Origin: Planctomycetota bacterium | GTDB lineage: Bacteria > Planctomycetota > Planctomycetia > Pirellulales > UBA1268 | DNA length: 64,000 nucleotides | Reading direction: 5' to 3' | Assembly: GCA_003669585.1 (NCBI GenBank) | Contig: QWOQ01000007.1 | Location: 1 to 64,000 of the forward strand | In this document: piece by piece, positions 1 to 63,000 of the stretch | Layout of the letters: the number at the start of each line of letters is the position of its first letter | Position numbering within the stretch: position 1 is the first letter of the stretch | Notes under the pieces: generated by a model | Database searches by the model: none | The model's input: the letters and a program-made list of their open reading frames with translations, nothing else | Told to the model about the DNA's origin: nothing | Position numbers and translations under genes: made by a program

Positions 1-3000
1 GAAACGTTTTTGATCGACTTTGTCGTCGAGCAAACGGGTTATCCTCGCGAGATCGTAGAAATGGACGCCGATCTGGAGGCAGATCTGGGGATCGACAGCA
101 TCCGCAAGGCTCAGCTCTTTGGCGAGATCGGGCAGAAGTATGGCCTGTCAGTAGACGACTCCGTATCGCTGGATGACTTCCACACGTTGCGGCATCTGTT
201 GGCCTACATGCTCCCCAAAGTGGGCATCGTAGAAGGCGATGCATCGCCAAAGAAGCAGGAGTCTTTGCACCGCGATGCGATGGCAGATAGTTCGGCATTT
301 CAAAACAGCGAAGCGTTTTGCCTCGGCGTCGAGATCGGGCAAACGCACGGCCAGGCTATCCGGCTGTGGGCTAGGCAGGTGGCTGGCAAGGGCAGACATG
401 CAGGCGGCGCGCATGCAACATTTGGAGATCAACTCGCCGGCGTGGCGCACGCCGCTGGAGTGGATCATAAAATTCTGCAGATTGCGTTGGAAAATCCATC
501 CGCTGCGCTCGGAGGCTTCGACACGCTGATCGTCGCTGGGGACGGGCCGGTTGGAATGCGAGGGATTGCCGTGGGCTTCGGCCGACACGCCGATCCATCC
601 GTGGAATCGTTTGATGAAAGTGGCTTAAAGGGCACGCTGATCGGCATCAAGGGGCTCCCCGGCGGGATCGTTGGTTGGAATAGCGCGGGGCTATTGATCG
701 TGGCCGGTGAGCCTAGGGCCGATAGACCTGCGGTCTCTTCTGGGATGGATGCAGTGCCGGTGACTTCTGCCATCGAACAACTGGTGCGCACGTGCCAGTC
801 AATCCAAGACGTCGAACGAATTCTCAAGGGTTATTCACTGCCGGTGCCGAGCCTATTGGTACTCAACGCATGGGTGGGTGGTATGTATGAAGTGCGGCCT
901 GACGGCAGTATGAATAGAGCGTCTGGGGTTCGTCAGAGTGGCGATGCCCGTGCCGCTCTGGCTCGCATTGCCTGTGCCGACAGCAGTGTGGGGCCGGCCG
1001 ACGCCTTGGCTACGCTGATCGATCCTGCACGTGAGAGCAACGTTCGGGATGCAATGTCTGCTGCCTGCACCTGGCTGGCAGTAGGCGTGGATCGTGGTCA
1101 GGCGATGGCCGCTTCAGGCGGGCCGCTGCCCATGGGCGCATGGCTCACTGGCGACATCGCACTGCTGGGCGAGAATTGTTCCAGCCATAATCCGCGAACC
1201 GCTGCAGCGAATGAATTAGCTTTTTCGCCAAGCGCGCAATCCACACCATCAGTCACCTGTCGGTATAGCATTGCGATGCGTCAGGCACAGGCCATCGGGC
1301 CATGCCGCAGCCTCTCGGGCGAAACAGTTTTGATTCTTGGCGTGGGGCCAATTTCCAGCCAGCTTGCAGATGCCGTTCGACTCGAGGGCGCACGAGCAAC
1401 AATCGTGGCCTGCGGTTCACAGCAAGAGGCATTTGCGGCGGTCGAAAAGGCGGAGGCTGCCGGGCCGGTGCGTCACCTCGTCGTGGCAGCAGCGTGGTTG
1501 GCCAACGACGTCGACTGGCCTGCAAACCGGCAAGCCACAATCATCGCTCCCTACTTCGCCTGTCAGCGGTGGATCTCGCTGCGGGCCAAGGCTGGCGATC
1601 TCGGCGAATCAACGCTTACGGCGGTCACTCATTTGGGCGGTGATTTTGGCATCTCCGGCCGCATTGAATGTGTCGAGAGTGGAGCGATGACAGGACTCCT
1701 GAAGGGCATTGCCCGCGAGTTTTCCAGCTTGCATGTACGGATCGTTGATTGCGATGCCAACACGCCACTGAATTTTGTCACAAAACACATAGTGGCAGAA
1801 ATGCGGGACGGCAGCGGGCCTGTTGAGGTTGGCTTTGTCGATGGCCGGCGGCAGACAACGGTTCCCTGTAAAACTGTTGCACAGTCTTTTGCGAAGCCGC
1901 AGCCGCCTCGTGCGACGCCAGTTGCCAACGGATCGCAGCGGCCCCTGTCGCGCGGCAGCGTGTGGCTCTTTACCGGTGGCGCCAGGGGCGTTACGGCCGC
2001 ATGCGCCCTCGAGCTTGCCAAACGGCATGGCGTGAGGCTCGCGTTGGTTGGCTCCACCCGGCCGGTTGATCTTGAAAAGGCGTGGCTTTCACTGGACGAA
2101 GCAGGGCTTCGAGAACTCAAAGGCAGTGTCATGCTCGCCGCTCGCGGCCGCAACACCGATCCCCGGAATGCATGGAAGACGATCGAAAAATCTCTTGAGA
2201 TTGCGAAGTCGCTGGCACGTTTTTCGGCTGCTGGTGTGGAGGCCGACTATTTTCCATGTGATATGTCACAGCCGGCGGAGGTGGCGTTGCTCGTGCAGCA
2301 AGTTGCGAAAGAGTTGGGGCCGGTGCGAGGCATCGTCCACGGAGCAGGCTTTGAATCGGCTTGCCGCTTTGAAAAGAAAACGCTCCAAGGCCTCGAGGCG
2401 ACGCTTGGTCCCAAGTGCATCGGCTTGGAGAACCTCTTGCGCATGATCGATACCAAATCGCTTGAGTACCTTGTGGCTTTTGGATCTACCAGCGGCCGGA
2501 TGGGTGGTGTCGGTCAGGCCGACTATTCTATGGCCAACGACATGCTTGCCAAAATCGTCTGTAAGGCACGCGGAGAAAAGAAAGGTTTCAAGGCGACCGT
2601 ATTTCACTGGCACGCCTGGGACGAAGTGGGAATGGCCAGTCGGCCGGAGAGCCGGTTTGTGCTGGAGCAGTTCGGACTCAAGTTTATGCCGCTGGCCGAG
2701 GGCGTCGGCAGGTTCATGGATGAGATTGAAGCCGGCCTGCCGGATGTGGAGGTACTCGTCACGGAGAGCGTTCTGTGTCCAGATGCCGTCAGTGGTCCGT
2801 TGCCATCGGCTATCAGTGCGACAGATGCAGTCGGCGTTGAAGCTGTGATGAATCGTTTGCAAGTAGGCAGCCTTGTTGGGGCTGTGGAGAAAAAAGGCGA
2901 TGCCACGTGGGTGAGTTTTCATCTGAATCCGACGAGTGATTGCTTCTTACGCGAGCACACGCAGCACGGGCGGCCGCTCCTGCCGGCCGTGATGGGTGCA

Positions 3001-3717
3001 GAATTACTCGCCCAGGCGGCGATTGCAGCTGGAGCGTGCCAGCAGGTGCAGGAAATCCGCGACTTTGTCGTTGAGCGCGCGGTGGGGTTTTCATCGGATC
3101 AAGGTCGCCAACTGCGAGTCGAAGTGTCGGCTGCACAGGATGGACTGGTGCGAGTCCAGGGTTGGTCTCGAATGAGGAGTGCCACCATTGCGGTTGAAAG
3201 TGATGAGCGGGTTCATCTTTCGGGAGTAGTCGCTGGAGAACTGGAGGAACCAATTCTCTCATCGCTCGACTCGATGCCGTTTCCATTCAATCCGATGGTG
3301 TATCAAAATGATGCACCACTCAAGCACGGTCCGGCATACCGAACGCTCTCGGGTCTTCTTCTGGACCGCGACGGTGGTTGGGGTCGATTAGTGGCAACGG
3401 ATCCCGAAGTGCTCGCCCATCCCCGCGGTGCCGCCGGGTGGACGCTACCGATCGCGCTCCTGGATGGCTGTCTGGTCGGCTGCGCTGTCTACTCCTACAT
3501 CCTGCTTGGAAAACGCGTCGAAGTGCCACTGCGTTTTGAACGCCTACGGATCGTGTCTCAGCCGAGTATCGGTGAAAAATGCACGCTGCGGCTCTTTTAT
3601 TGCTCCCACGATCATTCTGAAAGCATCTATAACTTCGTGCTCTATGGTGCCGATGGTCGTGCAATCCTTGCCGTAGATAAACTGCATCTTGCGGTCACAT
3701 CCGATCGGAGCCGGTAA
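1..3717 (+). CDS. PfaA/HglE-like iterative type I polyketide synthase, C-terminal part (ACP / C45-like / KR / DH); 5' end outside window
   Basis: The reading frame is open to base 1, so the ketosynthase and acyltransferase expected upstream lie outside the window. Counting from codon 10-12: an acyl carrier protein comes first, with phosphopantetheine site LGIDS (Ser30). Residues about 100-380 resemble peptidase C45 / isopenicillin-N acyltransferase (EIGQTHGQAIR near 109, WNSAGL near 223), which is very unusual here. A ketoreductase structural half lies at about 430-640, and its catalytic half at about 645-900, with nucleotide loop TGGARG and the PfaA-like FGSTSGRMGGVGQADYSMAN segment carrying Ser and Tyr. 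A double-hotdog dehydratase follows at about 960-1225 (LREHTQHGRPLLPAVMG with the His, LLDGCL with the Asp). The stop overlaps the next start (TAATG), so the next gene, a PPTase, is translationally coupled. The product is unknown; a long, partly reduced acyl chain is inferred. Confidence 0.88.
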   Translation, partial: ETFLIDFVVEQTGYPREIVEMDADLEADLGIDSIRKAQLFGEIGQKYGLSVDDSVSLDDFHTLRHLLAYMLPKVGIVEGDASPKKQESLHRDAMADSSAFQNSEAFCLGVEIGQTHGQAIRLWARQVAGKGRHAGGAHATFGDQLAGVAHAAGVDHKILQIALENPSAALGGFDTLIVAGDGPVGMRGIAVGFGRHADPSVESFDESGLKGTLIGIKGLPGGIVGWNSAGLLIVAGEPRADRPAVSSGMDAVPVTSAIEQLVRTCQSIQDVERILKGYSLPVPSLLVLNAWVGGMYEVRPDGSMNRASGVRQSGDARAALARIACADSSVGPADALATLIDPARESNVRDAMSAACTWLAVGVDRGQAMAASGGPLPMGAWLTGDIALLGENCSSHNPRTAAANELAFSPSAQSTPSVTCRYSIAMRQAQAIGPCRSLSGETVLILGVGPISSQLADAVRLEGARATIVACGSQQEAFAAVEKAEAAGPVRHLVVAAAWLANDVDWPANRQATIIAPYFACQRWISLRAKAGDLGESTLTAVTHLGGDFGISGRIECVESGAMTGLLKGIAREFSSLHVRIVDCDANTPLNFVTKHIVAEMRDGSGPVEVGFVDGRRQTTVPCKTVAQSFAKPQPPRATPVANGSQRPLSRGSVWLFTGGARGVTAACALELAKRHGVRLALVGSTRPVDLEKAWLSLDEAGLRELKGSVMLAARGRNTDPRNAWKTIEKSLEIAKSLARFSAAGVEADYFPCDMSQPAEVALLVQQVAKELGPVRGIVHGAGFESACRFEKKTLQGLEATLGPKCIGLENLLRMIDTKSLEYLVAFGSTSGRMGGVGQADYSMANDMLAKIVCKARGEKKGFKATVFHWHAWDEVGMASRPESRFVLEQFGLKFMPLAEGVGRFMDEIEAGLPDVEVLVTESVLCPDAVSGPLPSAISATDAVGVEAVMNRLQVGSLVGAVEKKGDATWVSFHLNPTSDCFLREHTQHGRPLLPAVMGAELLAQAAIAAGACQQVQEIRDFVVERAVGFSSDQGRQLRVEVSAAQDGLVRVQGWSRMRSATIAVESDERVHLSGVVAGELEEPILSSLDSMPFPFNPMVYQNDAPLKHGPAYRTLSGLLLDRDGGWGRLVATDPEVLAHPRGAAGWTLPIALLDGCLVGCAVYSYILLGKRVEVPLRFERLRIVSQPSIGEKCTLRLFYCSHDHSESIYNFVLYGADGRAILAVDKLHLAVTSDRSR

Positions 3718-4469
3718 TGGTACAGGCTGCTCGCGTGCTCCCGGTTGATCAATTGTGCCCAAACGCGTGCGTTGGCGATTGGCAATGCACCGTGCTCTTG
3801 GAGTCGTGCCATCACCTAAAACAGACGCCCTCAATCGGTGTTCGACGACTGGCAGAAAAAGTCGCTGATGCATGCTTGACCCAAGGTTTGTCACCGCATC
3901 AAGATCAATTGCACGGAGACCTCGGTGATACGGTGCGTGTGGCGACACTCATGCCCTCGGGGCGGCCAGTCGTGACGGTTTCCGGCCGAGTGGCGCCGGT
4001 ATACGTTTCGGTTTCGCACACTCGGCGTATGCGGGCAGCTGTGGCCTGCGTCGACGCTTTTGTGGGCATCGATTTAGTCGAGACGTGCGTGTCGGCAACA
4101 ACACCGTTGAAGGAAAACACTTGTCGTCGGGATCAGAATCTTGATGCGTGGTTTACAAAGGCGGAGGTGGAGTTGCTTGCAGACCGCACGGATCTCACGC
4201 CACGGATGCTCTGGGCAGCGAAAGAGGCAGCGTATAAAGCGGCTCGCATCGACACTGAATTTCGCCCGCGAATGATACACATTTCGTATTCGTCCGGCGA
4301 CCGATTTCAATGGAGCATGTGCAATCGCTGGTTGAACATGAGCGGGGCAGGCATGTTTTTTCTCGCGGGCGATCACTCGGTGGCGATTGCCGCTACGAGA
4401 ATGCCTCACCGAACTATTTTCGCTCATCACCGCGATTCACAAAGCATGCAGGTGGCCGAATGTTTTTGA
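3717..4469 (+). CDS. 4'-phosphopantetheinyl transferase (Sfp/AcpS superfamily)
   Basis: This 250-residue protein has the usual length of a Sfp-type transferase, which moves phosphopantetheine from CoA to a carrier-protein serine. Two family motifs are visible: VGIDLVE near residue 115, supplying the magnesium-binding Asp, and WAAKEAAYKAARI near residue 165, corresponding to the (W/F)xxKE(A/S)xxK motif. The N-terminal 90 residues are poorly conserved, as is usual. The start codon shares one base with the stop of the synthase gene, and the 3' end overlaps the start of the Rieske gene by ten bases. This arrangement points to dedicated activation of the ACP encoded just upstream. No signal peptide is present, so it should act in the cytoplasm. 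Confidence 0.88.
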   Translation: MVQAARVLPVDQLCPNACVGDWQCTVLLESCHHLKQTPSIGVRRLAEKVADACLTQGLSPHQDQLHGDLGDTVRVATLMPSGRPVVTVSGRVAPVYVSVSHTRRMRAAVACVDAFVGIDLVETCVSATTPLKENTCRRDQNLDAWFTKAEVELLADRTDLTPRMLWAAKEAAYKAARIDTEFRPRMIHISYSSGDRFQWSMCNRWLNMSGAGMFFLAGDHSVAIAATRMPHRTIFAHHRDSQSMQVAECF

Positions 4470-5647
4470 GCGACACGCACCTTCCGCAGCTCCTCCCACC
4501 GAGTGCATATACTGATCCCACTTGGTACATCACAGAGCGTGAGCACGTGCTCACGCCGGCTTGGCATGTGGTGGCCACTACGTCGCAGTTCCCCCGCGAC
4601 GGCAGTTTCATAACGTTTGATTTTTTTGGTTGTCCAATTATTCTTCGGCGACACTGCGGTGAAATCCGTGGATTCCTCAACGTCTGTGCGCATCGCCTTG
4701 CAAAACTGACAAGTCAACCAACGGGCTATTGCAGTGCCCTGCGGTGTGGATACCACGGCTGGGAGTACGACGAAGTTTCAGGTGCAACAAAAAAAATTCC
4801 TGATGCACCATCGTTTAAGCCCCTTGAGAAGGGAATGTTGGGGCTCACCTCTGTTCGGGTAGAGACATGCGGCGGGCTCGTGTTTGCAACCCTTTCCGAA
4901 GACGCCCCGAGCGTGGGAAAGAGTCTTTTGGAATGCGGCATCGACGTGGCTCGCACGATGAGTCCTGCGGGCTTCCTTGGCATGAGAGAAATCTGTTTTC
5001 CGGTGAACTGGAAGGTGGCGATTGAGAACACGCTGGAAAGCTATCACGTTGGAGAGGTGCATCCAAAGACATTCAAAACAGCACCTGCGGAGGAGCAGTG
5101 CAGCCATCAGTTATTTCCGGCTATCTCGATTTTTTGCGGCCCCGGCGACACCGTGCCTTGGATTCAGAGATTGGAAAGAGTGTTGCTCTCAGGCGCGGCC
5201 ATCCCGCAGACCGGTGGCTACCGACACGTTCATCTTTATCCCACATGTACGATTGCGGAAACCGATACCTTCACGATCATTCTCAGCTTCCTGCCGGAAT
5301 CGGCCAACCGCACCCGGTTGTTCATGACCTGGTTTGCGTCTCAGCGTGCCGGTGCCTCGGCAGTCTGGAACGGCTTGATCCGAAACTGGGGCCGTGTCCA
5401 GTCGGGCTTCTGGCTGACGGTCGTCAACGAAGACCTCTCGATGCTGCCAACTGTGCAGCAAGGGCTCGCGTCGTCGAGTCATCCAGGAACGGGCCTCATC
5501 TCCCGTCGAGAGGAGCGGATCACGCACTTTCAGCAATGGATTCTTGACCGCATACAGACGGATACAACAGCGACTCAACCAGCCACCATGCTGGTAACAC
5601 ACTCAAGCCCGTCGGCCGTCTCACCTATGGAGAATGTATTGACATGA
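4460..5647 (+). CDS. Rieske [2Fe-2S] aromatic-ring-hydroxylating-type oxygenase, alpha subunit
   Basis: The frame opens earlier, but ATG 4460 starts the Rieske fold and overlaps the PPTase stop, so it is preferred (395 residues). The Rieske ligands are complete: CAHR near residue 72 and CGYH near residue 93. The C-terminal catalytic domain has the mononuclear iron motif in ESYHVGEVH (His-x4-His) and the distal acid in NEDLSMLPTVQQGL. Such enzymes use electrons from a reductase to activate oxygen for hydroxylation, desaturation or demethylation. No ferredoxin or reductase is encoded nearby, so the electron donor would come from elsewhere. Its position inside the PKS operon suggests it oxidises the acyl product. 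The stop overlaps the next start (ATGA). The substrate cannot be read from sequence. Confidence 0.9.
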   Translation: MFLSDTHLPQLLPPSAYTDPTWYITEREHVLTPAWHVVATTSQFPRDGSFITFDFFGCPIILRRHCGEIRGFLNVCAHRLAKLTSQPTGYCSALRCGYHGWEYDEVSGATKKIPDAPSFKPLEKGMLGLTSVRVETCGGLVFATLSEDAPSVGKSLLECGIDVARTMSPAGFLGMREICFPVNWKVAIENTLESYHVGEVHPKTFKTAPAEEQCSHQLFPAISIFCGPGDTVPWIQRLERVLLSGAAIPQTGGYRHVHLYPTCTIAETDTFTIILSFLPESANRTRLFMTWFASQRAGASAVWNGLIRNWGRVQSGFWLTVVNEDLSMLPTVQQGLASSSHPGTGLISRREERITHFQQWILDRIQTDTTATQPATMLVTHSSPSAVSPMENVLT

Positions 5648-6408
5648 TCGACCTCACAGGAAAAGTTGCATTGGTGACCGGCTCCAGCCGTGGCATCGGC
5701 CGGGCCTGCGCTGTGCGTCTGGCCGAGGCCGGCGCCGACGTTGTCATCAACTACGTCACGAGCAGCCGCGAGGCTGAGAACGTGGCCGAGGAAATTGCTG
5801 CGATGGGCCGCCGGGTGGCGTGCGTGCGTGCGGATGTTGGCCAAGAAGAAGATGTCGAGGATATGGTGGCGTTCGTGCGAGATCAGTTTGGACAGCTTGA
5901 TATCCTCGTCCACAACGCGGCCACCGGCGGATTTCGTCCGCTGGCGGCCACATCGCAGCGGCATTTTGATGCGGCTATGCACACGAATGTTCTGTCTCTG
6001 GTGCACCTGCTCAAAGCCGCGGCCCCAATGCTGGAGAGTGCCGATGGCCGCGGAAAGGTGGTCGTCCTGTCGAGCCACGGCACGCACATGGCGCTGCCGA
6101 TGTATGGTTTGATCGGTGGATCAAAGGCAGCGCTTGCAGCGCTGGCTCGCCACTGGGCGCTTGAACTTGGGGATCGCGGCGTGAACGTGAATGTAGTAGA
6201 GGCTGGCCTTGTGGAGACCGATTCGACGCGACGCCTGCCCGGAGCGGCCGAGATGTTTGCCGGCCGTGCGAGCAAAACAATGATGGGTGAGCGGATGCTC
6301 GAAGCAACCGATGTTGCCGATTGCGTGCTTTTCCTGGCATCGTCGCTCTCGGATCTGGTGCAGGGGCAGACGCTCGTGGTGGATGGTGGCAGCGCGATCC
6401 ATATTTAA
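5644..6408 (+). CDS. Short-chain dehydrogenase/reductase, FabL-like (enoyl- or 3-oxoacyl-ACP reductase)
   Basis: A classical SDR of 254 residues. The cofactor loop TGSSRGIG is at residues 12-19 and the HNAAT motif near residue 89. The active site reads SSHGTH followed by YGLIGGSK, so Tyr and Lys are separated by six residues instead of the three of ordinary SDRs. Y-x6-K is the spacing of enoyl-ACP reductases such as FabI and FabL, and the surrounding text (YxxxGxSKAALxAL) is closest to Bacillus FabL as I recall it. It may therefore saturate the double bond left by the PKS dehydratase, a step for which the visible part of the synthase has no enoyl-reductase domain. The start overlaps the Rieske stop by four bases. 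The alternative is a divergent FabG-type ketoreductase. Confidence 0.85.
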   Translation: MIDLTGKVALVTGSSRGIGRACAVRLAEAGADVVINYVTSSREAENVAEEIAAMGRRVACVRADVGQEEDVEDMVAFVRDQFGQLDILVHNAATGGFRPLAATSQRHFDAAMHTNVLSLVHLLKAAAPMLESADGRGKVVVLSSHGTHMALPMYGLIGGSKAALAALARHWALELGDRGVNVNVVEAGLVETDSTRRLPGAAEMFAGRASKTMMGERMLEATDVADCVLFLASSLSDLVQGQTLVVDGGSAIHI

Positions 6409-6473
6409 TTGTTCTTCTGCCTCGCTGCGGCAGCGCAGCTGTTCAAACTCAGACCACTCAATCGGAGACAGGC

Positions 6474-7988
6474 ATGACCGGAAGTAATTCGTATCTGTTG
6501 CTGACGGGAGCCACCGGGCTTCTGGGCCGTTCGCTGCTGCGAGATCTTTCCGCGAGAGGCCGCCGGATCGCGGTGCTGGTGCGGAGTTCGAAAACGGCCC
6601 ACGCCGTCAGCCGCGTCGACGAGATCCTCCAAGACTGGCGCGAGGTCGCTGGAGTCGAGGTTCCCTGCCCGGTGGTACTCGAAGGGGATATCACTTCTGC
6701 CGCGCTTGGATTGTCGTCCGATCAAGCCGCATGGGTGTCCCGAAATGTAGACGAGGTTGTGCACTGTGCAGCCAGCTTGTCGTTTCAGATGCGGGAAAGC
6801 GATGGCGAGCCGTGGAATAGTAATGTGCACGGCACCGCCCATGTGCTTGAGATGTGCCGCGTGTCGGGCATCAAGCGGCTGCACCATGTGTCGAGTGCGT
6901 ATGTCTGCGGGCTGCGACGCGGAAAGATCCTCGAGACCGAACTCGACGTCGGGCAGACGCCCGGTAACGACTATGAGCGGAGCAAGATCGCATCGGAAAA
7001 AGCAGCCGTCAGTGCATCATTTCTGGACGTGTGTACGGTGCATCGCCCGAGCATCATCGTCGGCGACTTGGTAACGGGATTCACCAACACGTTTCACGGC
7101 TTCTACAAGCCGCTGCGAATCATCCAGCCGTTTGTACAGGCATTTGTCGATGCCGCGCTCGAGTCTGGTTCGCTGCTCGATGTGCTCGGTATGAAGGGGG
7201 ATGAAAAGAAAAATCTGGTGACGGTCGACTGGGTGTCGGCTGTCATGACGCGAATCATTGGGGATCGTTCGCTGCACGGTCGGACGTATCACCTCACCGC
7301 CACAAAGCCCACCAGCGTAGCGGCGCTGTGCCGCGTGTTTGAACAACTCGCCGGGGAGATGGCCCAGTCCCACGAGCAGGAGAAGCTCGAGAACCTCGCC
7401 GCCGGCAAGCCAGCCGCAGTGTTTGATCCCGCCATGCTGGTTCGACTCTTTGGCGACCAGATGCACGTGTATCGCGCGTATTGGAGCGATGACCCGCAGT
7501 TTGACTCAACCGAAGTCAGTCGAATCGCACCAGATATCCCGTCACCCGAATTGGACGAGCAGACGCTGATGCGGCTGTGCCGATTTGCGATTACCAATAA
7601 GTTTCGTTGGCCACCACCCAGCCGCCAGCAGCGGCAGACATCGGCCCGGCACTGGCTTGAACAGACCGTCGGTGAGCCGCAGTGGTCGCCGCCGAGCGGC
7701 AGTTCTGCTCTTGGCATTGCGGCAATTGGTGCCGGTGGCGGTCAGTGGACTCTTTGCTGCGACCAGGATCGGCCGTTGTCGCTGCACGTCGGCCTGCCCG
7801 GAGTGGAAGTGCCGACAATGTGGCTGGCGTCGGAAACGCTTGAAGATATGCTCGCTGGGCGAGAGTCAGCGAAGTCGGCCCGTGCCAGAGGCGGCATGGC
7901 CATTGAGGCTCCCGACATCACGCGCCGCGACGAAGCGATTCGAATTGTTGGGCATCTTGTGACGGATCGCCGGGTTCAACCCGCTTAA
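6474..7988 (+). CDS. Thioester-reductase-like NAD(P)-binding protein (NAD_binding_4 / extended SDR)
   Basis: ATG 6474 is chosen over earlier in-frame starts because it immediately precedes the Rossmann motif TGATGLLG at residues 11-18; the protein is 504 residues. The SDR active site is visible as HVSSAYVCG near residue 137 and YERSK near residue 165. The sequence resembles the reductive release domains of carboxylic acid reductases, NRPS/PKS terminal reductases and fatty acyl reductases, which reduce an acyl thioester to an aldehyde or alcohol. The C-terminal 180 residues have no motif I recognise. It lies 65 bases after the SDR gene on the same strand and ends the operon, consistent with release of the ACP-bound chain. 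Confidence 0.82.
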   Translation: MTGSNSYLLLTGATGLLGRSLLRDLSARGRRIAVLVRSSKTAHAVSRVDEILQDWREVAGVEVPCPVVLEGDITSAALGLSSDQAAWVSRNVDEVVHCAASLSFQMRESDGEPWNSNVHGTAHVLEMCRVSGIKRLHHVSSAYVCGLRRGKILETELDVGQTPGNDYERSKIASEKAAVSASFLDVCTVHRPSIIVGDLVTGFTNTFHGFYKPLRIIQPFVQAFVDAALESGSLLDVLGMKGDEKKNLVTVDWVSAVMTRIIGDRSLHGRTYHLTATKPTSVAALCRVFEQLAGEMAQSHEQEKLENLAAGKPAAVFDPAMLVRLFGDQMHVYRAYWSDDPQFDSTEVSRIAPDIPSPELDEQTLMRLCRFAITNKFRWPPPSRQQRQTSARHWLEQTVGEPQWSPPSGSSALGIAAIGAGGGQWTLCCDQDRPLSLHVGLPGVEVPTMWLASETLEDMLAGRESAKSARARGGMAIEAPDITRRDEAIRIVGHLVTDRRVQPA

Positions 7989-48050: not shown

Positions 48051-51000
48051 TCAGACTTTCTTCCACGTCTTCCTGCTGTCGTTCCAAGTGATGCTGCCAT
48101 TGGACACAACCCCGACCGTGCCGTTCCAGTCTTTCACCTGAATCATGCCAGGGGCGATCCACTTCCCGTATGCGGCTTTTCCGGTGGCTTCCACGAAGCA
48201 GAGGTCGCCGTTCGCCGTTTCAAACATCCGCACCCGAGCACCACGAGAGTCTGTATAATCTGCGGTGCTCTCAAATCTCGTGCCGAGCCTGCCAGACGCC
48301 CAATAGATGTCGAATATGGTGCCGCTCAGCAGGCCGCTGGACGCCCTAGGAGTGATGACGCCGTTCGCATCGATGGTGCACGAACCGTAATCGCCGCTGT
48401 CGCTCCACACCCGCAGAGATCGCCCCTGTTGCTGAACGTGAAACAGGGCTCCGCCCTTCTCGTAGGTGCCCGTGACGACAACACGCTGCCATGCGGTCTT
48501 GCCCTTGTTCCAGGCGATCACGCCGCCCTTAATCTCGCCGTTCATCCCTTCCGATGGCACGTTGATGAATCGCGTGCCGACGAGCAGTCCCGTTGCGGTA
48601 TGTCCGTCGGGATAGGTCAACGAGATGTCCTGGCCGTTCTGCGTGATGTATGCCGTTCGGCCGTTGACCAGCCAGAATCCTGTCAGTTCCTTCGCGCTCG
48701 ATACGTTGGTCAGGAAATTACCCGTGACTTTTCCTGTCACATCAAACTTGGTGAGAGCCGAGTTCACGCCAATCGTGCTGCGGTATGCGGCGATCGTCTC
48801 GTCCCGGCCATCGCCGTTGAAGTCGAAGGTGAATGCCGTCTCGTCGTTAGCGCTCTGCCGGCTGAAAATCGTGGTGAATTCGTTCCCCAAAGGGGTCCCC
48901 AGCCTCGCCCCATCGAACACCCGCTGCCTGCCGTAGGCATCATTGGGCCGGCCGACAATGAGGTCCTGCACACCGTCGGCGTTCGAGTCACCGACCGCCA
49001 TCCGCGGCACTCCCCGCCCACTATTGCCGAATGGCTGGAACCTGCCGCCGGGTGCCGCCACCCAAGCATTATTGACAGACAGGGTGAACGACTGGACAGT
49101 CGCGATCTCGTTGACGGCTGAGCCGACGAAGACCAGGCCTCGATTCGCCGGCCCGTTCAGATTCTGATCCGCGACGACGATCGTGAACTCCGCCGCTGCC
49201 GACATACCCATCGGCCACAGATCTGGGCCGATCTTTTCCAGGAAGTGCCCCGGCTCACCGCTGAAGACACGGATCGGTGCCCTCACGGCCCCCGCAGGCG
49301 AGACCACGAGGTCATACCATCCGTCGCCGTTGACATCCCCGACCGCGACGTTGATTCCGCCCATGTAGTTACGGAGATCGCTGTAGGGCCTGAGTTCCGT
49401 CACAAGATGACCATCGCGGCCATCAAAGATTCGCACGAATGCGTTGGGAACACCCTTGTTCAGGCCCACGATCAGATCGGCAAGGCCGTCCCCGGTGAGG
49501 TCGCCCATCACGGCCCGCACGCCCACGAGGCTCGTCGTGCCGTACAACCGCTCCGCGGGTACCTCGAACTTCAGCATGCCGGATGCGGCGTCAAACACCT
49601 TCACGCCATACGTGCTGTCGACGCCCACGTCGGACACCACAGCCACGGTCGAGTCGTTGAACTTCTCGATGCTCGTAAACCGCACGGGTAACGCGTCGCC
49701 AAACGTCCACAGGCCCGATCCAGGCACCGTCGGTGACAACTGCAGGAATGAGTCCGAAACGGTCGTCAGATCGATCAGGAGTTTGTCTCCCGAGCGGGGC
49801 GGCACAGTGCCGGTCGCCGGCAGGTTGCCGTTGATGTCGAAGGTTGTCGCCTGGCTGGGTACGACGACGATCGTATTGGCGACGTTCGTGCCTGCCAGTG
49901 ACAGCCGCTCGGTCGATCCGTCGAATGTCAGGCCGGCAAAGGCCCGCGCCAGCGATCCTGTCCGCAGCGTGGACGTGACTGATGACGGCGTGACGCGATA
50001 GTTGACGCTCTTCGTGTTGTCAGTCGCCCCGTCGTCCACAGAGACACGGTCATTACCGCCGCCGCTCGTGACGGCCACCGCACCCCTCAGCGCATCGAGG
50101 TCGCCGTTACCGACGTTGACTACGTCGTCTCCTTCACCGGCGTTCACCGTTGTGACGCCGCTCGTTGCCAATAGGTTGACGGTATCAGTACCGCCATTGG
50201 TGTTGAGTGTCGTTGCGCCGGCGTGGGTGCTGGCCACGGTAAACGTGTCGCCGCCGCTGCCGAGGCTGACCTTCAGGGCCTCAAACGTGCCGTAGACGAT
50301 CTTGCCAACCATCCCAAGGCCCGTGAGCTCGGTCGAAGTCAGCGTACCGGTGTTGCCGAGCGTGTCGGCGGTATCGACCACGTTCAGCGTGTCGCTGCCG
50401 CTGCCACCGTTGACCGTCAGCAGGGCACTGATCGAGTTGGCATTGCCACCGGCGGTCGGTGCCGTGCTGCCCACGTTCACCGTGTCGGCGCCGTTGCCCG
50501 TGTTGATCGTCGTGGCTGCGGAGATGGCCCGAACGTTGACCGTGTCGGTGCCGGCGGCGGTGTTCACCGTCGTCAGGCCCGCGGTCGATTCGATCGTGAC
50601 CGTGTCGGTGCCGGCCTCACCGTTCACGGTCGTCCCGCCGGCGTGCGTGCTTACGACGGTGATCGTGTCGCCACCGTCGCCGGCGCTGACAGTCAGCGAT
50701 TGAATCTTCGAGTAGGTCGCCGTCACTCCCGCCCCCGACACCGTCGTGCTGGTGATCGAGATGTTGTCGGCAAACCCGGTGCCCGTCACATCAAGCGTGT
50801 TCGCGGTGCCGCCGCCGCCATCGACGGCGACCCCCGCGTTGACCAACGCCAGTCCGGATAGATCGGCAAAGCCATTGACCACGAACGCATCGTCGCCCGT
50901 CCCGCCATGAAGCGTGACGGCCGCGAGATTGCGGCGAACCGTGAAGGAGTCGCCCTCGTCGCCGCCGTTGATCGTCGTCTGGTAACTGACGCCTTTGGTG

Positions 51001-54000
51001 AGGTACTGTCCCCCGGCGATCTTCGTTCCGCCGAGGCTGTTCGTCGCGTAGAGATTTCCGACCGAGTAGGTATTCCGACCCGCTCCGCCATCAATGGTCG
51101 TAACGGCCCAGTTGTCATCGACGACGACATTGTCACTGCCGCCGCCGGCAGCGACCGAGAGCGTGTTGATGCTCTTTGTGTAGTTGACGCGTTGTGCAAT
51201 CGCAGGATTTGTCGCCAGCGAGGCGACGGAGGCGAAGCCGGAGGGGTCGGTGCTTGCGCCCAGCCGCAGCTGATCTGCTTCGTCGGAGGCGGTCACTCTC
51301 AGGATGTCGACGGCGGCGTCATTGCCGCTGTCGGAAACGTCGACCGCATAGCCGGATACCGGCAGAGCGGGATTGCGGAACGTCACATTATAGGTGTCGG
51401 CCCCGCCCAACCCATCGAGCGTCATCGAGTTGGCCCGGTCGTTGAGTTTGATCACGTTGAACACGTCGCTGCCACTGCCGCCGGTCGCGGTCACCGGCCC
51501 GACGATCTGGTTGCCGGGCGTGGACATGTCGATCGTGATCGTATTGGCGGTGGCCACACTGCCGTCGATGGCGATCGACGAGCCGTTGACGCTGCCATAG
51601 ATCAGGATCTTCGTGGCGGTCGTGTCGGCGGTTACGTCATTTCCACGGAGCGTGACGGCCTGCGTTGCCTGGACGGAACCGCCGGACTCGATCGTGAGAT
51701 CGTCGCCGGCGAGCAGCTTCACGTTGCCGGCAACTGCCTGCACAGCACCGCTGGACTTCACCGTCACATTCTGGCCGGAGGCACTGGCGTCTATCGCCCG
51801 GAGAGTGACGTCGCCGCCCGTGGAGGCGACACGCTCGACGATCGACAGCAGTCCCTTGGCCGTGACCGCGACATTCTGGCCGGCTGACACGCCCGAGATC
51901 TTTATCGCGGCCGGCAGGGCGACGCCGTCGATGCCGCCGATCGTCAGGGCCTTGTCGTTGGTGGCGAAGAAGCCGCCGGTGTCGCTGGTTCCCTCGAGAT
52001 TGTCCACCGAGAGCTTGATCGGGGCCGCAGCCGTGCCGACGCCCGTCGCAGCCCGGAGCAGCGCGTTCGCCGCGACGATGTCGCGGGTGCCGGTCGTCGC
52101 CGAAGTGATCTTGCCGACGGTGCTGGAATCATTGTCGGCGCGGAGCGTCACGCTGCCGGTGCCGGTTTTCGTGTCAACCCTACCCGTGCCTGTGAACGCG
52201 ATGTCGTTGTCGACAAGGATTGCGACATCGCCGCCGTTGCTCGTGATAGCCGCTGCCACGACGATGTCGTCCGACGCGGTAAGTAAGACTGGCCCGGCAG
52301 AGTCGATCGCCTCATTGACGGTGATCGTGCTGTGGGCGGAGAGGGTCACCGACGTTGCCGAAAGCCCCACAAGGCTGCTCACGCCGCCGATCTCGACGTC
52401 ACCGGTGTTGTCGATCCAGAGGCCGCCAGTCGTGACGACCGCCTCCAGACGGCTCACCTTGGTGTGAAGTGCGGCCGTCGTACTACCGATCTTCGTAACG
52501 GCCTTCAGGATCGCCGAGCCGGCCGTGATGTCGCCCGGACCAGCAAGGTCGGTAATGCCCTGCGTCGCCTCGATCGTGACGACGCCGCTGGAGGCGGCGG
52601 TGATCACGCCGATAGCCGCATCGCCCTCGACCGTGAGCGTCACCCCGGCGGTCGATGCGGTGGCAGCGTCGACGTCTAGGCTGCCCAGCGACTGGATGAA
52701 CATGCTGCCCGAGCCCGCGTCGGCGTGCAGCGACACCGACTTACGATTCCCGGAGGGGCCGACCAGGAAGAAGTCGTGCGCTGCACCGATCCCGGAGCCG
52801 GCGTCTAGGCTGATGGTCTTGGCCGCAACGTTTGCCTTGTCTGAAGCCACACCGCCGAACCTGCTGTTGATCCCGCTCGTCGCGGTGAGCGCGACAATCT
52901 CGACGGAATCGATGGTGCCGACGGTCATCGCTCCAGCGTCCACCTTGATCGTCACATTGCCGCCCGCGGTCACGCTCGAGACCGTCAGGCCACCAGACAC
53001 CTGCTGCACATCGACGTTGCCGCGCACATCGGCGGCCAACGCCCCGACCTGCATGCGAAGCGATCCGCTCGTGCCCGAGACTCCGCCCCCGGTGCTCGTG
53101 ACACTGAACGCACCTGCTGCCTTGATTGCCGCCGAAACGCCAATCGAATAATGGTCAACGATATCTCCCTTGGCTCGCAGCCGCACGTCACCGCCGGCAG
53201 AAACACTATCGATGTTGATGTGGCCTTCCGAGCCGAGATCGATGGCGTCAGCGGCCGTGGCGACGATGGCACCCGATACCTCGACATTCACGTCATCGAT
53301 GACCTGCAGCGTCACGCTCTTGACTTCGCGACGGTTTTCCAAGTAAGTGCCGGCCGTCATGCTCTTCGTGCCGGACCCGGTGTGGAGGTGCGTGTCGAGC
53401 TTCGCCCAGAGCATCGTGTTCGCGTAGCTCTGCCCCTGCAGAACCATCGCGGCCGGCGCCCCGACGTATTTGTAGAGGCCGAACGTGTCCTTCAGCTGCA
53501 CCCGCACGATGTCATTCGTGGCCACGGGGACAGATCCCGTCGTGGCGCTGGTGGAATACGTTGCCGTCACGGCCTGCCAGAGACTCGTGTCAGCGTAATT
53601 GGCCGTGCCAAGATTGACACTCGCACTGGCGCCGATGTAACGGTAGGTCGCAAAGCTCACCCCAACGATGTCGGTGACGGTCGCCTTCGACAGGAGTTGC
53701 TGGTCAGCGGGGGCCAGACCTTTGAAGCCACTGGTGAGATCGAGGTTGACTAGGCCGCTGCTGCTGCCAATCGAGTTGCTGGCACCGCTGGCGATCAGGC
53801 TGACGTTGGCCCCGACGACGTTTGGCGATTCCGTCCCTGTGGGGTTGTAGACGAACGCGTTCGGGATCGTCGTCTCCGGGTAGATCAACCGGAAAACACC
53901 CTCCGACACCGACGAAGTGAGCGCCGCGGAGTTGAGCGTCCGGTCGGCAATCCGCTGGTTGATCTCCGCCTGAGACAGCAGGTAGACGAAGTCGGGGTTG

Positions 54001-57000
54001 TAGGACTGATTCCCATAGTGGTCGGCGACCACCTGCATCGCTGCGGGCAACTGGAACCGCACGCTGACGCCGGAGAGACTGCCCGCGGCACCCAACGACA
54101 CTGTCACGGGCGTCGATGCGACGGCATCGGCGTAGGTTGCGGAAAGGCCGATGCGGTTGTTGTCGATCTTCACCACGAAGTAGGTCGTGTTGTCCTGCAC
54201 GCCGCCGAGTTGTCCGTTCGTGCCGCTGAACGTGATCTGATCGCCAGTCGTCAGCCCGGGGTTGCTGGCGAAGGAAATCGAGTTGCCCCCCACGGCACTC
54301 ACCGCCGTCGGGACACGCGTGTTGTAGCTGAACAACACGGTTGCGCCGGCCACAGAACCGTTGACCGTGATGTCGACCGTCGCGGGCGACTGGGCCAGGG
54401 CGGCCCGGCGACTGGCCGCCAGCTGGATGTGGGTGGAATCGACTTTCACGACGAAGTAGGCCTGCTCAGCCCACAGGTTTGTGACGCCCGCAACGCCGCT
54501 CAGGAAGACCTGGTCGCCGGTGTTCAATCCATGGCTGGAGGCGAATGCGATGGTGTCGCTGGCCGCATCGATCGCCGACACGCTGCTGGTCGTGACCTGT
54601 GTGGGGTCAGAGCTGGCGGTCGTGTAGCCATATTTGATCAGCGTGACCCCTGTGACCGAGCCGTACACGTTGATCGACAGGGGAACCGGGGGCTCCGCGA
54701 TGGCGGCGCTGACACGGTCGTTGGCAAGCCGGATGTGAGTATCGTCGACCTTCACGACGTAATACGGCACATCGTCATTGAGGCTCGTGACGCCCGCTGC
54801 ACCGCTCAGGAAGATCTGGTCGCCGGTGTTCAGCCCATGGGTGGATGCGAAGGCGATCGTATCGGTGGCGGGGGTTTGGCCGCTTGCGGCGACGTGGACG
54901 ATATCGAGCACGGCGATCGTACTGGCGACGGCGTCGCGCTTTGCATTGCGATAGGTCTGCCAGTAAGTGTGATAGTCCTGGGTCGCGGCGCTCTCCTCCG
55001 CCCGGATGGCAGTCCTCGCGGCCTCCGCCGCCAAGCTGCCGCTGAGCTGGAGGTTGGTATTGAGCGAGGATGCCTCGGTCTGGGACAGCGGCTGCGACTG
55101 CTCGTAGAGGGCGTCGAGAATCCTGCCGCTGGTCGCCTCGAGCCTCACGTTACCGCTTCCGGACCGGACAGACCCCAAGGCGGCGGCCCACAGCGTCGGC
55201 GTGACGAGCCTGAGGTCGTCGGTCGTTTCAAGGATGAAGATGCCGTCCTGCGCATTGGCTGCCAGGCCGCCCAATCCCGTCGTGTTGCTGTTGATTCGGA
55301 CAGACTGACCCGACGAGCCAATGCCGCCCGCCGTGGCCAGTAGTTCGATGCGGTTGCCCTGAATCAACGAATTTCCATCCGCGGCCGTGATGCCACGGGG
55401 AGCCCGAAGGGTGACGTTGCCGCCCGCTTGGAGTGAATTCACCACCAGTCCGTTCTGGTTGTCGGCGGACACGGCCGTGAGATCGATGTCGCCGCCCGCA
55501 GTGATCTTCACGGCACCACCGCCAGCGTCGACGGCCGAGAGGAAATTGCCGGTTACGTCGATATCGACCGAACCAACGGAGAGGCTCTGGCTGGAGACAA
55601 AACTCCGGAATGATAGTGGGCCGGCCTGTTGGCTCGCCGCCTTGGTCAGAATCGCGGCCCCCTGGCCGCTGGTGAACGAAGCGGACTTGATTGCCACGGC
55701 AGCCACGCTCGGGCTGGTGATGATCCCCGACAGGAGGATGTCCGTCTTGCTGTGAATGGTGACCGTCGGGCTGGCTGCTCCCCGTGCGGCGACGATTTCG
55801 ATCGGATTGTCGGCCTTGAGCGTATGCGTGAAGTAGTCCTTCTGGCCTACAACGGTGGTGTTTTCTGTGTGGTAGGACGTCTCCCGCATCCAGCCGCCAC
55901 CTGTCGTCCAACTGCGGTTTGTGGACGAGAAGTTTTTGTAGCCGCTGTCGTGCGTGATGTCGCTCGTGAGAACCGAGTCGCCCAGGTCCGTCCACCGCGT
56001 CGTGTTCTTGTAGTTCTCAGTGGGCAACGACACCTTCGCCGTCGTGCCTATGAAGCGGTAGGCGTGGTTCAGGGTGCCCTTCGACGTGTCGGTTCCCACA
56101 TACTTGATGAGCGACGAGTCTTTGATGACTTCGACGAGCGTGTCGTCGACCAACGAGTAGTTCACCGTGTAGAGGTTGCCCACGGCGTAGCTCAGTTGGC
56201 TGGTCCCGGCAGACATCTTGCCGTCGCCGACGAGTGCCTCCGATTCGAGCAGCGGCTGGCCATTGCTGTAGACGGACGTGGTAGAGGTGGGAAGCTGCTT
56301 GTCCTTCGCGAGGTTGTCGTCGTTGTAGCCCAGTAGATTGAACGAGTTGCTGTCGTACTGGTTTACCGTGGTGGTGGTGAACGACTGGCCTTCAGTCCAG
56401 ACATACAGCAGGCCAGCCGTCGGGTTGTAGGCCACCGGGGTTCCGTCCGGCGTGAAGACCGCAGCACCACTCTGGGAATACACCAATTGGTTGTTCACCA
56501 TCGAAGAGGTGTAGGTGGTCGTCTCGATCCCCGCCTGAGTGACGAGATATTCCGTTTTCTTTACCTGCGGCATCACCGTATCGACGATCGTGATGCGGCC
56601 CTTGCGGAACGTGGTCGTGTCGATGCGGTTGAGAATGAGACCGTAAGCGCTCTGGTTGTCGATGTCGACGCTCGCGTAGCCGCTGGCGACCTTCAGCCTG
56701 CCGTTGCCGGTACTGAAAACCTCACCGGCAATCGTGATCTCGCCCCCCTGTGGGGCAATATCCGAGACGACGATCGCCTGTCTCTGCGCGTCGAAGTATC
56801 CCTTGACGGGAACACCATCGACGCCGAAGGAGATGCCGGTCAGCGGCTTGCCGCTGGCGTCCAGCAGGCTGCTGCCGGTGGCTGTGCCCAGGAAGGTATT
56901 GCCCACATGGAGCGTCACGGTGTCCACGCCGCTCTGCACGAGACCGTCGATGTTCAGATAGCGGGCCGTGATCGCGATGCGTCCCTGGGCGACGACCTTC

Positions 57001-60000
57001 GACGTATCTCGATCGATCGCAGTCTGGAGATCCGGGGCTTGAATCGAGCTCGCAGTGACGAGCGGCTGGTTGGGTTGTAACTTCGCCGCAGCCCGCTTGG
57101 TGCTGTAGCTGACATACTGCCGCGGATCTTGATTAGAGTGGTACCAGTTGTTGGAGTTGAGCGTGAAATCCTTGGCCGACGTGATCGTCACTCCGGCATT
57201 GCCACCGCCACGGATCTCCCCGGAGACGTTGATACTGCCGTTCAAGTTGTTGATCGTGACGCCGCCGGTCTCGTTGACAACCTGCCCGGTGATGTAGATG
57301 TCCGGGTCGATTTGCGGCGGGCTGTTGAGCCCGTTCCACGAGTATTGCGAGAAGCTATAAGCGTCTTGCGTGATGCTGATTTGCTTCGTAGAAGGGGCGA
57401 CAGCGGCCGACGACGACACATTGTTGAAGTAGACCCGACCCGGCGTCAGTTCTGTGTACTTGCCATTGACGACGGTGACTCTTGTCGCATCGTCGATCAC
57501 CGCATCGCCCACGATCAGATTGAAGGGGGACTGGTTGCGAATCGTGATCGACGCATTCGGGGTGGCGTGTAGTTGCGACTGGGTCACCCCGGCCTGGCTA
57601 TCGGCCTCGATGAACACCGATCCGGGGGAAACATAGATTTGCGGAACCTGGATGAACATGGCATCGAGGCTGCGCTTTACGGCCGGTGGACTCGTGCTCA
57701 ACAGGCCGTAGCTGGCCAGCGTCGTCTCGATCTGCTGGAGTTGCACCTGATATCGCGCCACCGCCTCAACGTTCGTGCTATGACTGCTGATCCACGCGAG
57801 AATCTCGTCCCGCTGCTTGACAAGTTGCTCGCCCAGATTATGAATCGTCGCGACGGGCGCCGCCACGCCCACCGGCTTGATGCAATAGAACACGTCCGGC
57901 GTCGAGAACGCGGCCCGCAACTGCAGGCCCTTGTTGCTTTCGATGGCGGCGGCAACGAGGCCGGCGGAAGGTGATGTCAACTTCTGCCAGATGGCGGTAT
58001 TGGCGTAATCCTGCTGCTCCAGGATCAGGTCGGTGGTGCCGTTCTTGAGATACTGGTAGTAACCGCCGACGTCACCGCCGGCCTTCGCGCCGGTCACGAC
58101 GTGCACCACCGCATTCTGAGAGACCGGGAACGTGATCTTGTCTAGGTCGATCCGGGCAAATTCGTACGCGACATCATCGGGAACCAATACTCCCTGCTGC
58201 AACAATGCCGCTTTGTCGACAGCCAACAGCGTCTGTCCAAGTTTTCCTGCCGCAAGTAGGTTTGTCTGGCCGACCTTCATCGGGCTGATCAGCATTACTG
58301 TCTGGCTGTCACTGCCTGCCGTGACATTGGAAGTCGAGTCTACGGTCACGGTGTTCGTGCTGTTCACGGTCGCCCCGTCGGGCACCGGGAAGCCGTACGG
58401 CACCAGGGACACCGAGATCACGCTTCCGTCGGTGCGAGCCCGATTGTTCCCCCCAAGCCCTTGGATCGCCAGCAGATTCACGTTCTTGACGGCCTGCACC
58501 TTACTGCTATTCACCACCGAGACCGAGTCGCGCTCGTTGATGACCGCCTTCACGATCGGCACCGCGATCGTCGGGAGCATGCCCACCGTGGTGATCACGG
58601 CATTTGAGCTGGCGCTTAGCAGATTCGGCACGCCACTTCTGTTACGCCCCGACTGCAGGAAGACTTCGCTCCCCTTGAGCGTTGAGTTGTCGATCGTGAT
58701 GGCGTTGGTGACGTTGGCCGTGGTCTTGGCATCGACCCCGGCACCGCCGCCTGCATAAGAGGCGACGAGCAGGTTGCCGCTCGGCTGGAGGCGCGACTCG
58801 GCGCGGGTTGCCAGCAGCAGGTCGCCCGTCTTATTTTCAAGCGTCGCTCCCGTGACGTTGATCTTCGCGTTGGCGGTCGAGTCGATCCGCGACACCCCAA
58901 CCGCCACGCCGAACCCCGAGACGCTCTCGATGCGGACGCTGTCATACGCCTCCGCGTTGGTCAGCGACTCGATGCGAAACAAGCCATGCGTCTGGCGGGT
59001 GCCGTGGGCGGTCAGGCGGGCCGCCGGACCGATGTCGACGACGGACTGAAAGGGATTTAGGGTGGTGCCGATGTCGGTCGCGCTAGTCAGCGCGGTCACG
59101 TTGCCGAGGCTCGCCGACCCAGAGCGGAGATTGCTCGCATCCTTGTATGCATCCTTAAGGAACGTGTTCCCGGCATTAATCAGGATGTTGATCGCGTCGA
59201 CGGTCGCCCCGGTACCGATGCGGACGTCGGCTTTACTCGTGAATGTGTTCTTCACGCCGGCGCCACTGCCAGCGGCCAACGCGATGGAATAGCTGTCGGC
59301 CGACGCATCAGCGTTTTGGGTGAGTTGGGAATTGACATCCAGCGTCGTCGTCAGGCTGAGAATGGCGTTGTTGCCGATTGTGGCCTGCACACTGTTGTCG
59401 CTCGTCACCTGCGACTCGGCCCCCGCGGCGGCCAAGACCCCACCACCTGCCGCGATGCTCTTTGAGCGCAGCGTGTCGCTGCCGCTGGCGGAGAGATGCA
59501 ACGCGTTTGCGCTGACGTTTGTTCCTGTTCCCACCGAGGCGACGACCTCGTCGGTGGCATTCCCTCTGCCGACCTGAATATTGGCGATCATCGCCCCGAT
59601 TGCGATCGTTCCCAACGCGCCGCCGTAGGCCGACGAGTTGGCGATGTTGTTGGAGGTGGCCTGGATTGTCACATCGCCCGTAGACGTGAGCGTGGCGTTG
59701 TTGGTCGCGCTGGCTTCGACACGGGTGCGGATGATGGCGTCGGAACGGTTGCCCGACGCCGCCCCGCCGCCGGAGGCCGAGACGCCAACGGTTGTGGTCG
59801 TCGGCACGTTGGCGACCGACGCCGCGGTGATCGAGGTGCTGCCGGAAGCGATCGTTGCGTCGTCGACAGTGGCGGTGATCGTGCTTGCGATCGTGTTGTT
59901 GAGGATGGCGACACCGAGCGCCCCTCCCACACTGAAGGCAACGCTCGTGACGGTGGCATCGGCGTTGACGACGGCCTTCTCGTCCGCGTGGACGCTGACG

Positions 60001-63000
60001 GCCCCCCCGGCGGTGACGGTCATGGCACCACTGATGGTGGCGGTCACCGTGTCGTCGATCGTGTTGTAGACCCCGACGCCGCCGCCGCTGGCGCTAAGGG
60101 CACCAAGGGAGACAGAAACTGCCACTACCGTGGTCTTCGTGACCTCGGCATCCATCGTAGCCGACACACTGACTTTACCGCCGGCATTGACCTTGTTCAC
60201 TGAGGAGCCACTGATCGTCGCGCTCACGCTGTCCTTGATCGTGTTGGTCACCTCTGACGCGGCCACCGAAACCGCCCCAAGGCTGGCCGACAACGCCACA
60301 CCGATCGCCGCTGACTTGGTGACCGTACTGCTGCCGGTGGAGACCACCTCGATGTTGCCAACGGCCCCCACGGTGGAGTCGCTGACGTGCGCGTCGATCT
60401 TGTTCGCTATCATGCTCTTCGAACCCACGCCCGCGGCAGCGACTGCGCCGCCAACGCCAATCGCGATCGCCACCGATCCGGCGAAGGCCGTGGCATCGAC
60501 CGTGTCGGTCGCACTGGCCTTGACCGTCACGTTTCCCGACGCAGTCACCACGGAACGCTCGATGGAAGCGAGCACCTGGTTGGCGAGGCCGGCGGTATCG
60601 TCCGAGGATTTGTAGCCGATAAAATTCCGCGAGATCGAGACGCCAACGGAGCCAGCTGCTGAGTTTGCGCCCCCGCTGAAGGCCCCCGCGACAGCGCCCA
60701 CGAGCGAATTGATGGAAGCCGTGCTCTTCGCCACGACGTTCACATCACCGGCGGTCGCGTTGACGTTACTGTCGACGACCGAGGACTGGACCTGGTTGCA
60801 GATAATGTTGTAGGCATCGGCACCGGCACCGCTCAACGAAACTGCGAGCGAACCGGACGCTGCCGACAGGGTCACGGCCACTGACGTCGCCTTGATCTCC
60901 GCGCTCTCGAGGGAACTGAGCGAAACAGCGCCGGCCGTGGCAGTGATACCTGTTCCCTTGTTTGCGTTGGCGATGGAGGCCGAGATGACGTTGGCAACCT
61001 CGTTCCGCGCCAACGACACCCCGATCGCGACGCCGGCGGCGGTGCTGCCGAAGGCGGCTGTCAACGAAGCCCCCACGGCGGTTGCTGTGATCGTGCTCTT
61101 GTCCTGGGCCAGAAGCGTCACGTTGTTGGCCGTGATGCTGCCGTTCGCTTGCTCGTAGACACCGGCCTGCCCGCCCACCACCTGCACGTTGGAGACGTAG
61201 TCGATCGACGCCTTGACGGAGGTCGCAATCTTGTTTTTGGCGGCCGCCCCTGAGCCTGCGACGGCGATGCCGACGCTCGTTCCCTGCGAGATCGCTGCGG
61301 ATACCGCCACGATTACGGCGCTGATGGCTTCTTCCGTCTTGGCGGTAATCGTCAGATGTCCCTGGGCATTGATGGTCGAATTCCGCACGTAGGCGTGCAC
61401 CTCGACACGCTCTGGCGTGTCGCTGTCGAGGCCGTAGCCGATGTAATTAGTCGAGACAGCCGCTCCAATGGCAACGCCGGCCCCCACGCTCGTCCCGCGG
61501 CCGAGTGCCATTGCCAGGGTCACCACCGTCGCGTGGATCGAGGAAGAGTCGCTGCTGGCGAGCACCACGTCTTTGCCCGCCGTCACGAAGCTGTTTTCAA
61601 TGCGGGCGTTCGAACCGGAGAGGATGATGTTCGTTGCCTCTGCGCCACCGCCGCTCAGGCCCACGCCGGTACCGCTCGTTCCGGCGGCGAATGCGACTGA
61701 CGCCGCCACCGAGACGGCTTTGATCGTGCTGCTGCTGGTGCTCGTGAGCCCCACGTCTGTCTTCGATGTCACGTCGGCGTTGAGCAGTTCGGCAGTCACC
61801 TTATCGTCGATGCGATTGCGGGCGATCGATACGCCGATGGCCAGACCGGCGGCGTTGTTGTCGCCCTTCGCAAACGAGAGGCTGGCCCCTACCGCGGTGG
61901 CTGTCACCGTTGCAGTGTCGCTGGCGGTAAGTGCGATCGGGCCACCCAGCGACTGGATCGGTGAAAGGGATTTGATTTGCGGCGGCGTGTTGACGATCGC
62001 GGCTCGAACGGTCGTGTCGATCTCATTCGTGGCGGCCGCGCCCGCACCGGAAGCCGCAGCGGCAGTGGTTCCGCCGCTGGCAAAGGCGAGCGATCCGGCA
62101 AACGCCACGACCCAGATCGTGGGCTGCGAGTTGGCAACGACACTAAGATTGCCAGCTGCCACAACGTACGAATCGCTGATGAAAGCCTGCACCCCGCCGG
62201 ACGCGGTCTTGTCCTTGATCGTGTTATTCGCCACGGACGCGCCCACGGACAAGGCCACGGTCGATTCCCCCCCGCCACCGAGGCCAACGCCGATGGCAAT
62301 CGCCCCGGCGATCGACTTGATCGTCGATTCGTCCTGAGCCGATACAGTCACCGTGCCGCTGTTTTGGCTGGTCACGTTACTGCCATTCCTGATCGACGCC
62401 GTGACGTCTTTGGAGATGGTGTTGAACGTGAACGCTCCGGCACCTGCGAGGGCCGTGGTCGCTCCACCCGCGCCGCTACTGGCGCTGGCGACTGCACCAC
62501 CGATCGCATACGCCTCGATCCGCCCCTTGGAATGGGCTTTCACGACGACACCGCCCACAGCGGTCGTGGTGACATGGGCTTTGTCGAGATATGCCGAGAC
62601 AACGCTGTCGATCTTGTTGAAGGCAAACGCCGCCCCGCCGGCCGCGGCGGTAGCCCCCGCATTCTCCGCCTTGGATAGCCCCACGGCGACGCCGCCCGCC
62701 ACCGTGACAATCCACGAGTCGGCATCGTCGGCCACCACCTTCAGGCTCCCCGCACTCACCAGACGCGTGCCGTCATCGCTCACGTAGGACTTGACGGTGG
62801 CATCGATCGAATTGATCGCGAGTCCGACCGCGAGGGCCAGCCCCTTGGCAGTTGGGTCGTCTTTTGACCCTGTGGCGTCGACGACGGCGATGCCTGCGGC
62901 AACGGCCGTGATGTGCGCGGCATTCGTGGCTGTGACAGTGACGGCACCGGTTACGGTGAGAGCGGAGTTGCTCACGTGGGCATCGATGTTCTCCTTGATG

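Follow-up and report, generated by a model that had tools for sequence, protein, structure and literature searches.

The window, i.e., the whole stretch of 64,000 nucleotides analysed here (contig QWOQ01000007.1 of assembly GCA_003669585.1, from a planctomycete of the order Pirellulales), begins inside the gene for a large polyketide synthase (PKS), which is followed by four further genes. The genes and the domains of the synthase are as follows.

1..3717, + strand: 3' part of a large PKS (ACP - C45-like - psiKR - KR - DH), 1238 aa, 5' end cut at the contig edge
10..207, + strand: ACP domain (PF00550, aa 4-69, E 9.5e-7), with the LGIDS motif at nt 85-99
292..1185, + strand: C45 / isopenicillin-N-acyltransferase-like Ntn domain, degenerate (hhalign; AlphaFold and Foldseek; NF040521 in relatives)
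1252..1920, + strand: psiKR, structural ketoreductase subdomain (colinear with the psiKR of ortholog L051; TIGR02813, PfaA-type, from aa 542)
1963..2625, + strand: ketoreductase domain, KR (PF08659, E 3.1e-26, aa 655-875)
2896..3705, + strand: dehydratase domain, DH (PF21089 and PF14765, aa 966-1235)
3717..4469, + strand: 4'-phosphopantetheinyl transferase, PPTase (PF01648), conserved beside the PKS
4310..5647, + strand: Rieske ring-hydroxylase-type oxygenase (PF00848, PF00355), kept in most orthologous loci
5644..6408, + strand: SDR / FabG-like reductase (PF13561)
6405..7988, + strand: thioester reductase of the male-sterility type (NAD_binding_4; PF07993, E 2e-38; longer ORF 6321-7988), conserved, a candidate off-loading enzyme

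The KS-KS'-AT half of the synthase lies terminally on contig C1 of this assembly and is 89% identical to ortholog L046. The end of C1 and the start of the window share an exact overlap of 146 nt (window 1-146) inside the ACP; a contig break with an exact overlap at this place is what several near-identical ACPs in one synthase would lead one to expect. Full orthologs, e.g., L046 and L051, have the order KS - KS' - AT - ACP (1-3) - C45-like - psiKR - KR - DH, and the psiKR of L051 is 58% identical to that of L046, which is a near-identical ortholog of the window's synthase. KS, AT, ACP, KR and DH thus stand on one chain, as is required of the PfaA type, in L046 and L051 and, via C1, in the window's own synthase. 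The enzyme is a lipid-type iterative PKS in which a C45-type Ntn domain, as a constant module, separates the ACP(s) from psiKR-KR-DH. With the PfaA-type or heterocyst-glycolipid-like "secondary lipid" synthases (TIGR02813) it shares psiKR-KR-DH, the upstream ACP and AT, and the proximity of genes for a PPTase, an SDR and a thioester reductase; it differs from them by carrying KS-KS'-AT on one chain and the C45-like domain between ACP and psiKR. A survey of such synthases from 2011 gave the planctomycete type J as KS-MAT-ACP3-KR, and neither "penicillin" nor "AAT" occurs as a word in that survey (PMC3098273).

The set of PPTase, Rieske oxygenase, SDR and thioester reductase is partly conserved around the orthologs. 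For the SDR, identities were 82-87% in the orthologous loci which reach the full gene and 64-68% in three loci of a second PKS group (see below). A divergent gene of the PapA/condensation type is often found near the orthologs and also adjoins the half of the synthase on C1.

The C45-like segment comprises about aa 98-395 of ORF 1..3717, and its HMM bounds of about nt 295-1173 are close to the limits of 310-1150 proposed in the initial annotation. All C45 motifs quoted there are present in frame 1 of this ORF, which contains GVEIGQTHG, QLAGVAHAAGV, LGGFDTLIVAG, GFGRHADP, IVGWNSAGL and SLLVLNAWVGGMYEV, and the position between ACP and KR agrees with the order of the Pfam matches. A direct search with the window segment alone produced no match to a Pfam or NCBIfam family, so that profiles were needed. 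Among ten aligned family members, five matched NF040521 (best E 4.9e-6) and two matched PF03417 (0.0049), and the alignment of all ten, when compared with the PDB, found the C45-like entry 3gvz with an E of 0.0017. Comparison of the orthologous domains with 27 standalone planctomycete C45 proteins by hhalign yielded a probability of 98.3% and an E of 1.8e-14. The profile of standalone C45 proteins scored 24.9 bits on the window domain, whereas none of 500 shuffled versions of that domain exceeded 11.2 bits.

An AlphaFold model of the window domain, built from ten sequences, was of middling confidence (pLDDT 69, pTM 0.63). Its top PDB match in Foldseek was isopenicillin-N acyltransferase 2x1e (E 3.4e-6, probability 1.00, TM-score 0.38); NAAA, CV2077 and acid ceramidase were also among the best matches. 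For the C45-type structures in Foldseek's top ten, TM-scores ranged from 0.26 to 0.45, values so low that the model cannot be relied on in its details. When the Cys-bearing ortholog L052 was modelled as well, the same families came up. The homology of the segment is supported, and it is a genuine Ntn domain of the C45 type; the Ntn fold, whose absence the initial annotation had named as the refuting outcome, was returned by structure and profile comparison alike. With the C45 family (NF040521, AAT PF03417, isopenicillin-N acyltransferase) it has in common the order of secondary structure and motifs, including GG-x and GxN and, with an Asp that varies within the group, the GRxxD region; it is unlike that family in lacking the Cys and the Asn of the TNH motif, in being embedded in a PKS and in staying under the curated family cut-off of 85 bits, since the window domain had no match at all and ortholog L052 reached 25.9 bits. 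The sole PF03417 match in the window's own genome is an unrelated fusion on another contig (L001, 379-3168), a protein of 929 aa which, by eye, consists of a C45-like part and an alpha/beta-hydrolase-like C-terminal part.

The catalytic positions in the window read as follows.

517..519, + strand: Phe173 (codon TTC) in place of the Ntn nucleophile Cys (GG-F-D versus GG-C-S/T)
583..594, + strand: Arg195 and Asp198 kept in the GRxxD motif (GRHAD), the Arg invariant in the group and the Asp variable
679..681, + strand: invariant Asn227 in the GxN motif (GWN versus GMN)

Since hhalign pairs GGFD with GGC(S/T), the nucleophile position is occupied by Phe173, and the initial annotation was right in finding no Cys there. 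Of the C45 motif GRNxD, the window's GRHAD retains R and D, the latter differing among group members. The TNH Asn is absent from all orthologs aligned, including those which bear the Cys. In all full-length copies the residue after the nucleophile position is an invariant Asp and not Ser or Thr; this Asp, the GWN sequence and a helix with IRxWARQ are invariant residues specific to the group. With Phe in place of the nucleophile and without the TNH Asn, neither self-cleavage nor formation of a C45-style acyl-enzyme is expected, and the window domain is predicted from these residues to have lost autoproteolysis and acyl transfer.

The set of orthologs comprised 29 loci from two planctomycete families, with convincing matches in 26 of 72 genomes of one family and in two genomes of another family of the same order. 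The C45-like domain was found, in the same slot, in every orthologous PKS for which enough upstream sequence was available. Homologous synthases which retain the Cys, a search for which had been proposed in the initial annotation, do exist: nine of the 29 loci have Cys in the nucleophile column, and in the others the site is damaged or holds Phe, Leu, Ile or Ser. Mapped on a tree of the psiKR region, the Cys state requires at least four changes. The outgroup family has Cys, which is therefore probably the ancestral state of this column, and its survival in several deep branches suggests that the Cys had or has a use. For 13 pairs, dN/dS of the C45-like domain was 0.13-0.56, as compared to 0.09-0.28 for the downstream part (rough values from Nei-Gojobori counts); the domain was thus mostly slightly higher, and clearly below 1. 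None of the convincing PKS copies contains a stop codon inside the domain. In L077 and L078 its N-terminal part is lost or rewritten, and L078 is shortened. Two further loci, L125 and L126 (G456:C166 and G469:C465), showed, in a frame of 867 aa, a dehydrogenase-like sequence fused to psiKR-KR, with neither KS nor ACP; the dehydrogenase-like sequence has an N-terminal Rossmann motif and, by eye, resembles a 3-hydroxyacyl-CoA dehydrogenase.

A second group of synthases became apparent with the paralogous PKSs L124 and L127, both from one genus of the window's family, which possess a full C45 domain (NF040521, E 2.5e-39). Searching with a C45 domain of this type yielded colinear PKSs, mainly from another planctomycete family; 150 genomes from that family were sampled for a survey, and relatives were sought within the phylum. 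Their order is KS-KS'-AT-(ACPn)-C45-psiKR-KR-DH(-DH), i.e., domain order and slot are those of the window's group, and their first KS (in L140, L141, L144, L127 and others) is 47-53% identical to that of L051. The initial annotation had known of no PKS with this domain; the 29 loci in two planctomycete families and this second group all carry it in the same slot. In contrast to the window's domain, C45 of the second group exceeds the cut-offs of Pfam (L141, L142, L144, L127) or NCBIfam (L140, L144), and about half of the copies contain Cys, NxD, GxN and TNH. Matches were present in 22 of the 150 genomes sampled, and 22 of the 26 matches lay in frames of more than 1000 aa. Eleven of the 21 readable PKS copies from the surveyed family had the Cys together with NxD, GxN and TNH, and ten were without the Cys, so that the same slot holds live-looking and dead versions. 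A single origin of both groups of PKS-embedded C45 domains was not rejected (p-AU 0.143, from data that included a long row which was probably chosen wrongly); the shared slot argues for one origin. No fusion was found among plasmid records.

Four of the matches were separate, Cys-bearing proteins of about 500-540 aa, at least three of them (L158, L167, L168) with an ACP-like N-terminal part which lacks the usual Ser. In three genomes (L167, L168, L169) such standalone ACP-like and C45 proteins with Cys occur beside PKSs whose C45 domain is Cys-less and whose upstream part is without ACP; this co-occurrence is suggestive only. Within the second group, loss of the Cys accompanies absence of in-cis ACPs. 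A connection between the two was set aside, and no conclusion was drawn, since the pattern represents a single event on the tree and is broken by L124/L127, by L166 and by the window's own group.

In the open papers searched, no description of a C45 domain in a PKS was found. Both parent families are known; neither their combination nor the repeated loss of catalysis seems to have been described. Some of these proteins may already carry a C45 label in databases.

The window domain is probably a pseudoenzyme, kept as a scaffold or ACP-facing module and derived from a catalytic domain which handled ACP thioesters; the idea of a non-catalytic scaffold in the initial annotation is borne out to this extent by a C45-like fold without nucleophile between ACP and KR. 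Since sister synthases still bear the Cys, it looks like a catalytic domain which was retired into a structural part. The domain would be retained as a folded spacer, a dimer contact or a scaffold facing the ACP, and the product would be released via the thioester reductase which the operon also encodes. Isopenicillin-N acyltransferase takes its acyl groups from CoA, which makes it plausible that the ancestral module took acyl groups from the phosphopantetheine of the ACP. Catalytic domains kept as non-catalytic structural parts are known from animal fatty acid synthase, as psiME and psiKR; these are a methyltransferase and a ketoreductase, whereas the pseudo-domain here is an Ntn acyltransferase, and the parallel is one of analogy only.

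A broader reading, which we regard as possible but somewhat doubtful, is that planctomycetes possess lipid PKSs with a built-in, self-cleaving Ntn acyltransferase, of which the window type would be a secondarily uncut scaffold form. If the Cys-bearing versions process themselves as C45 enzymes do, those synthases should be cut into two chains at a predicted Gly|Cys site, which would separate the ACPs from the reducing half; the domain would also transfer or hydrolyse ACP-bound acyl chains.

It is unlikely, in our estimate, that the Ntn fold was re-tooled into a new enzyme for which the Cys is dispensable, e.g., for binding of acyl-ACP, gating of chain length, or hydrolysis with Asp174, Arg195 and Asn227. 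The purifying selection on the domain would suit such a function, as would the invariant residues foreign to ordinary C45 proteins (the Asp after the nucleophile position, the Trp of GWN and the IRxWARQ helix), but the GRxxD motif is variable at its Asp, the Asn of TNH is missing, a bulky Phe, Leu or Ile occupies the nucleophile position, and some copies, such as L078, are shortened. Still less probable is a former editing or off-loading domain which drifts towards loss and has no present role: its dN/dS is far under 1, convincing PKS copies are free of stops and every ortholog with upstream sequence has the domain, even though the repeated loss of the Cys, the somewhat higher dN/dS than in flanking domains in most pairs and the lost or rewritten N-terminal parts of L077 and L078 are what would be seen in a decaying passenger. 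That the resemblance to C45 is superficial and the segment an unrelated linker or another fold is highly improbable, since the empty Pfam and NCBIfam searches with the window sequence alone are outweighed by the profile-profile E, the score far above shuffles, the C45 structures as best Foldseek matches of two models and the NF040521 matches of half the family alignment.

The list of PKS parts would be extended by an Ntn acyltransferase module which occurs both live and dead. Cys-bearing and Cys-less sister synthases constitute a natural experiment on the change from a catalytic to a structural domain and on self-cutting of megasynthases, and the synthase marks a widespread planctomycete lipid pathway.

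Far downstream of the synthase, window positions 48051-63923 on the - strand contain an ORF of 5290 aa, of which 4900 aa were scanned with Pfam; this gave weak FG-GAP repeats only, close to the end of the scanned part, and the product is likely a giant surface or secreted protein.
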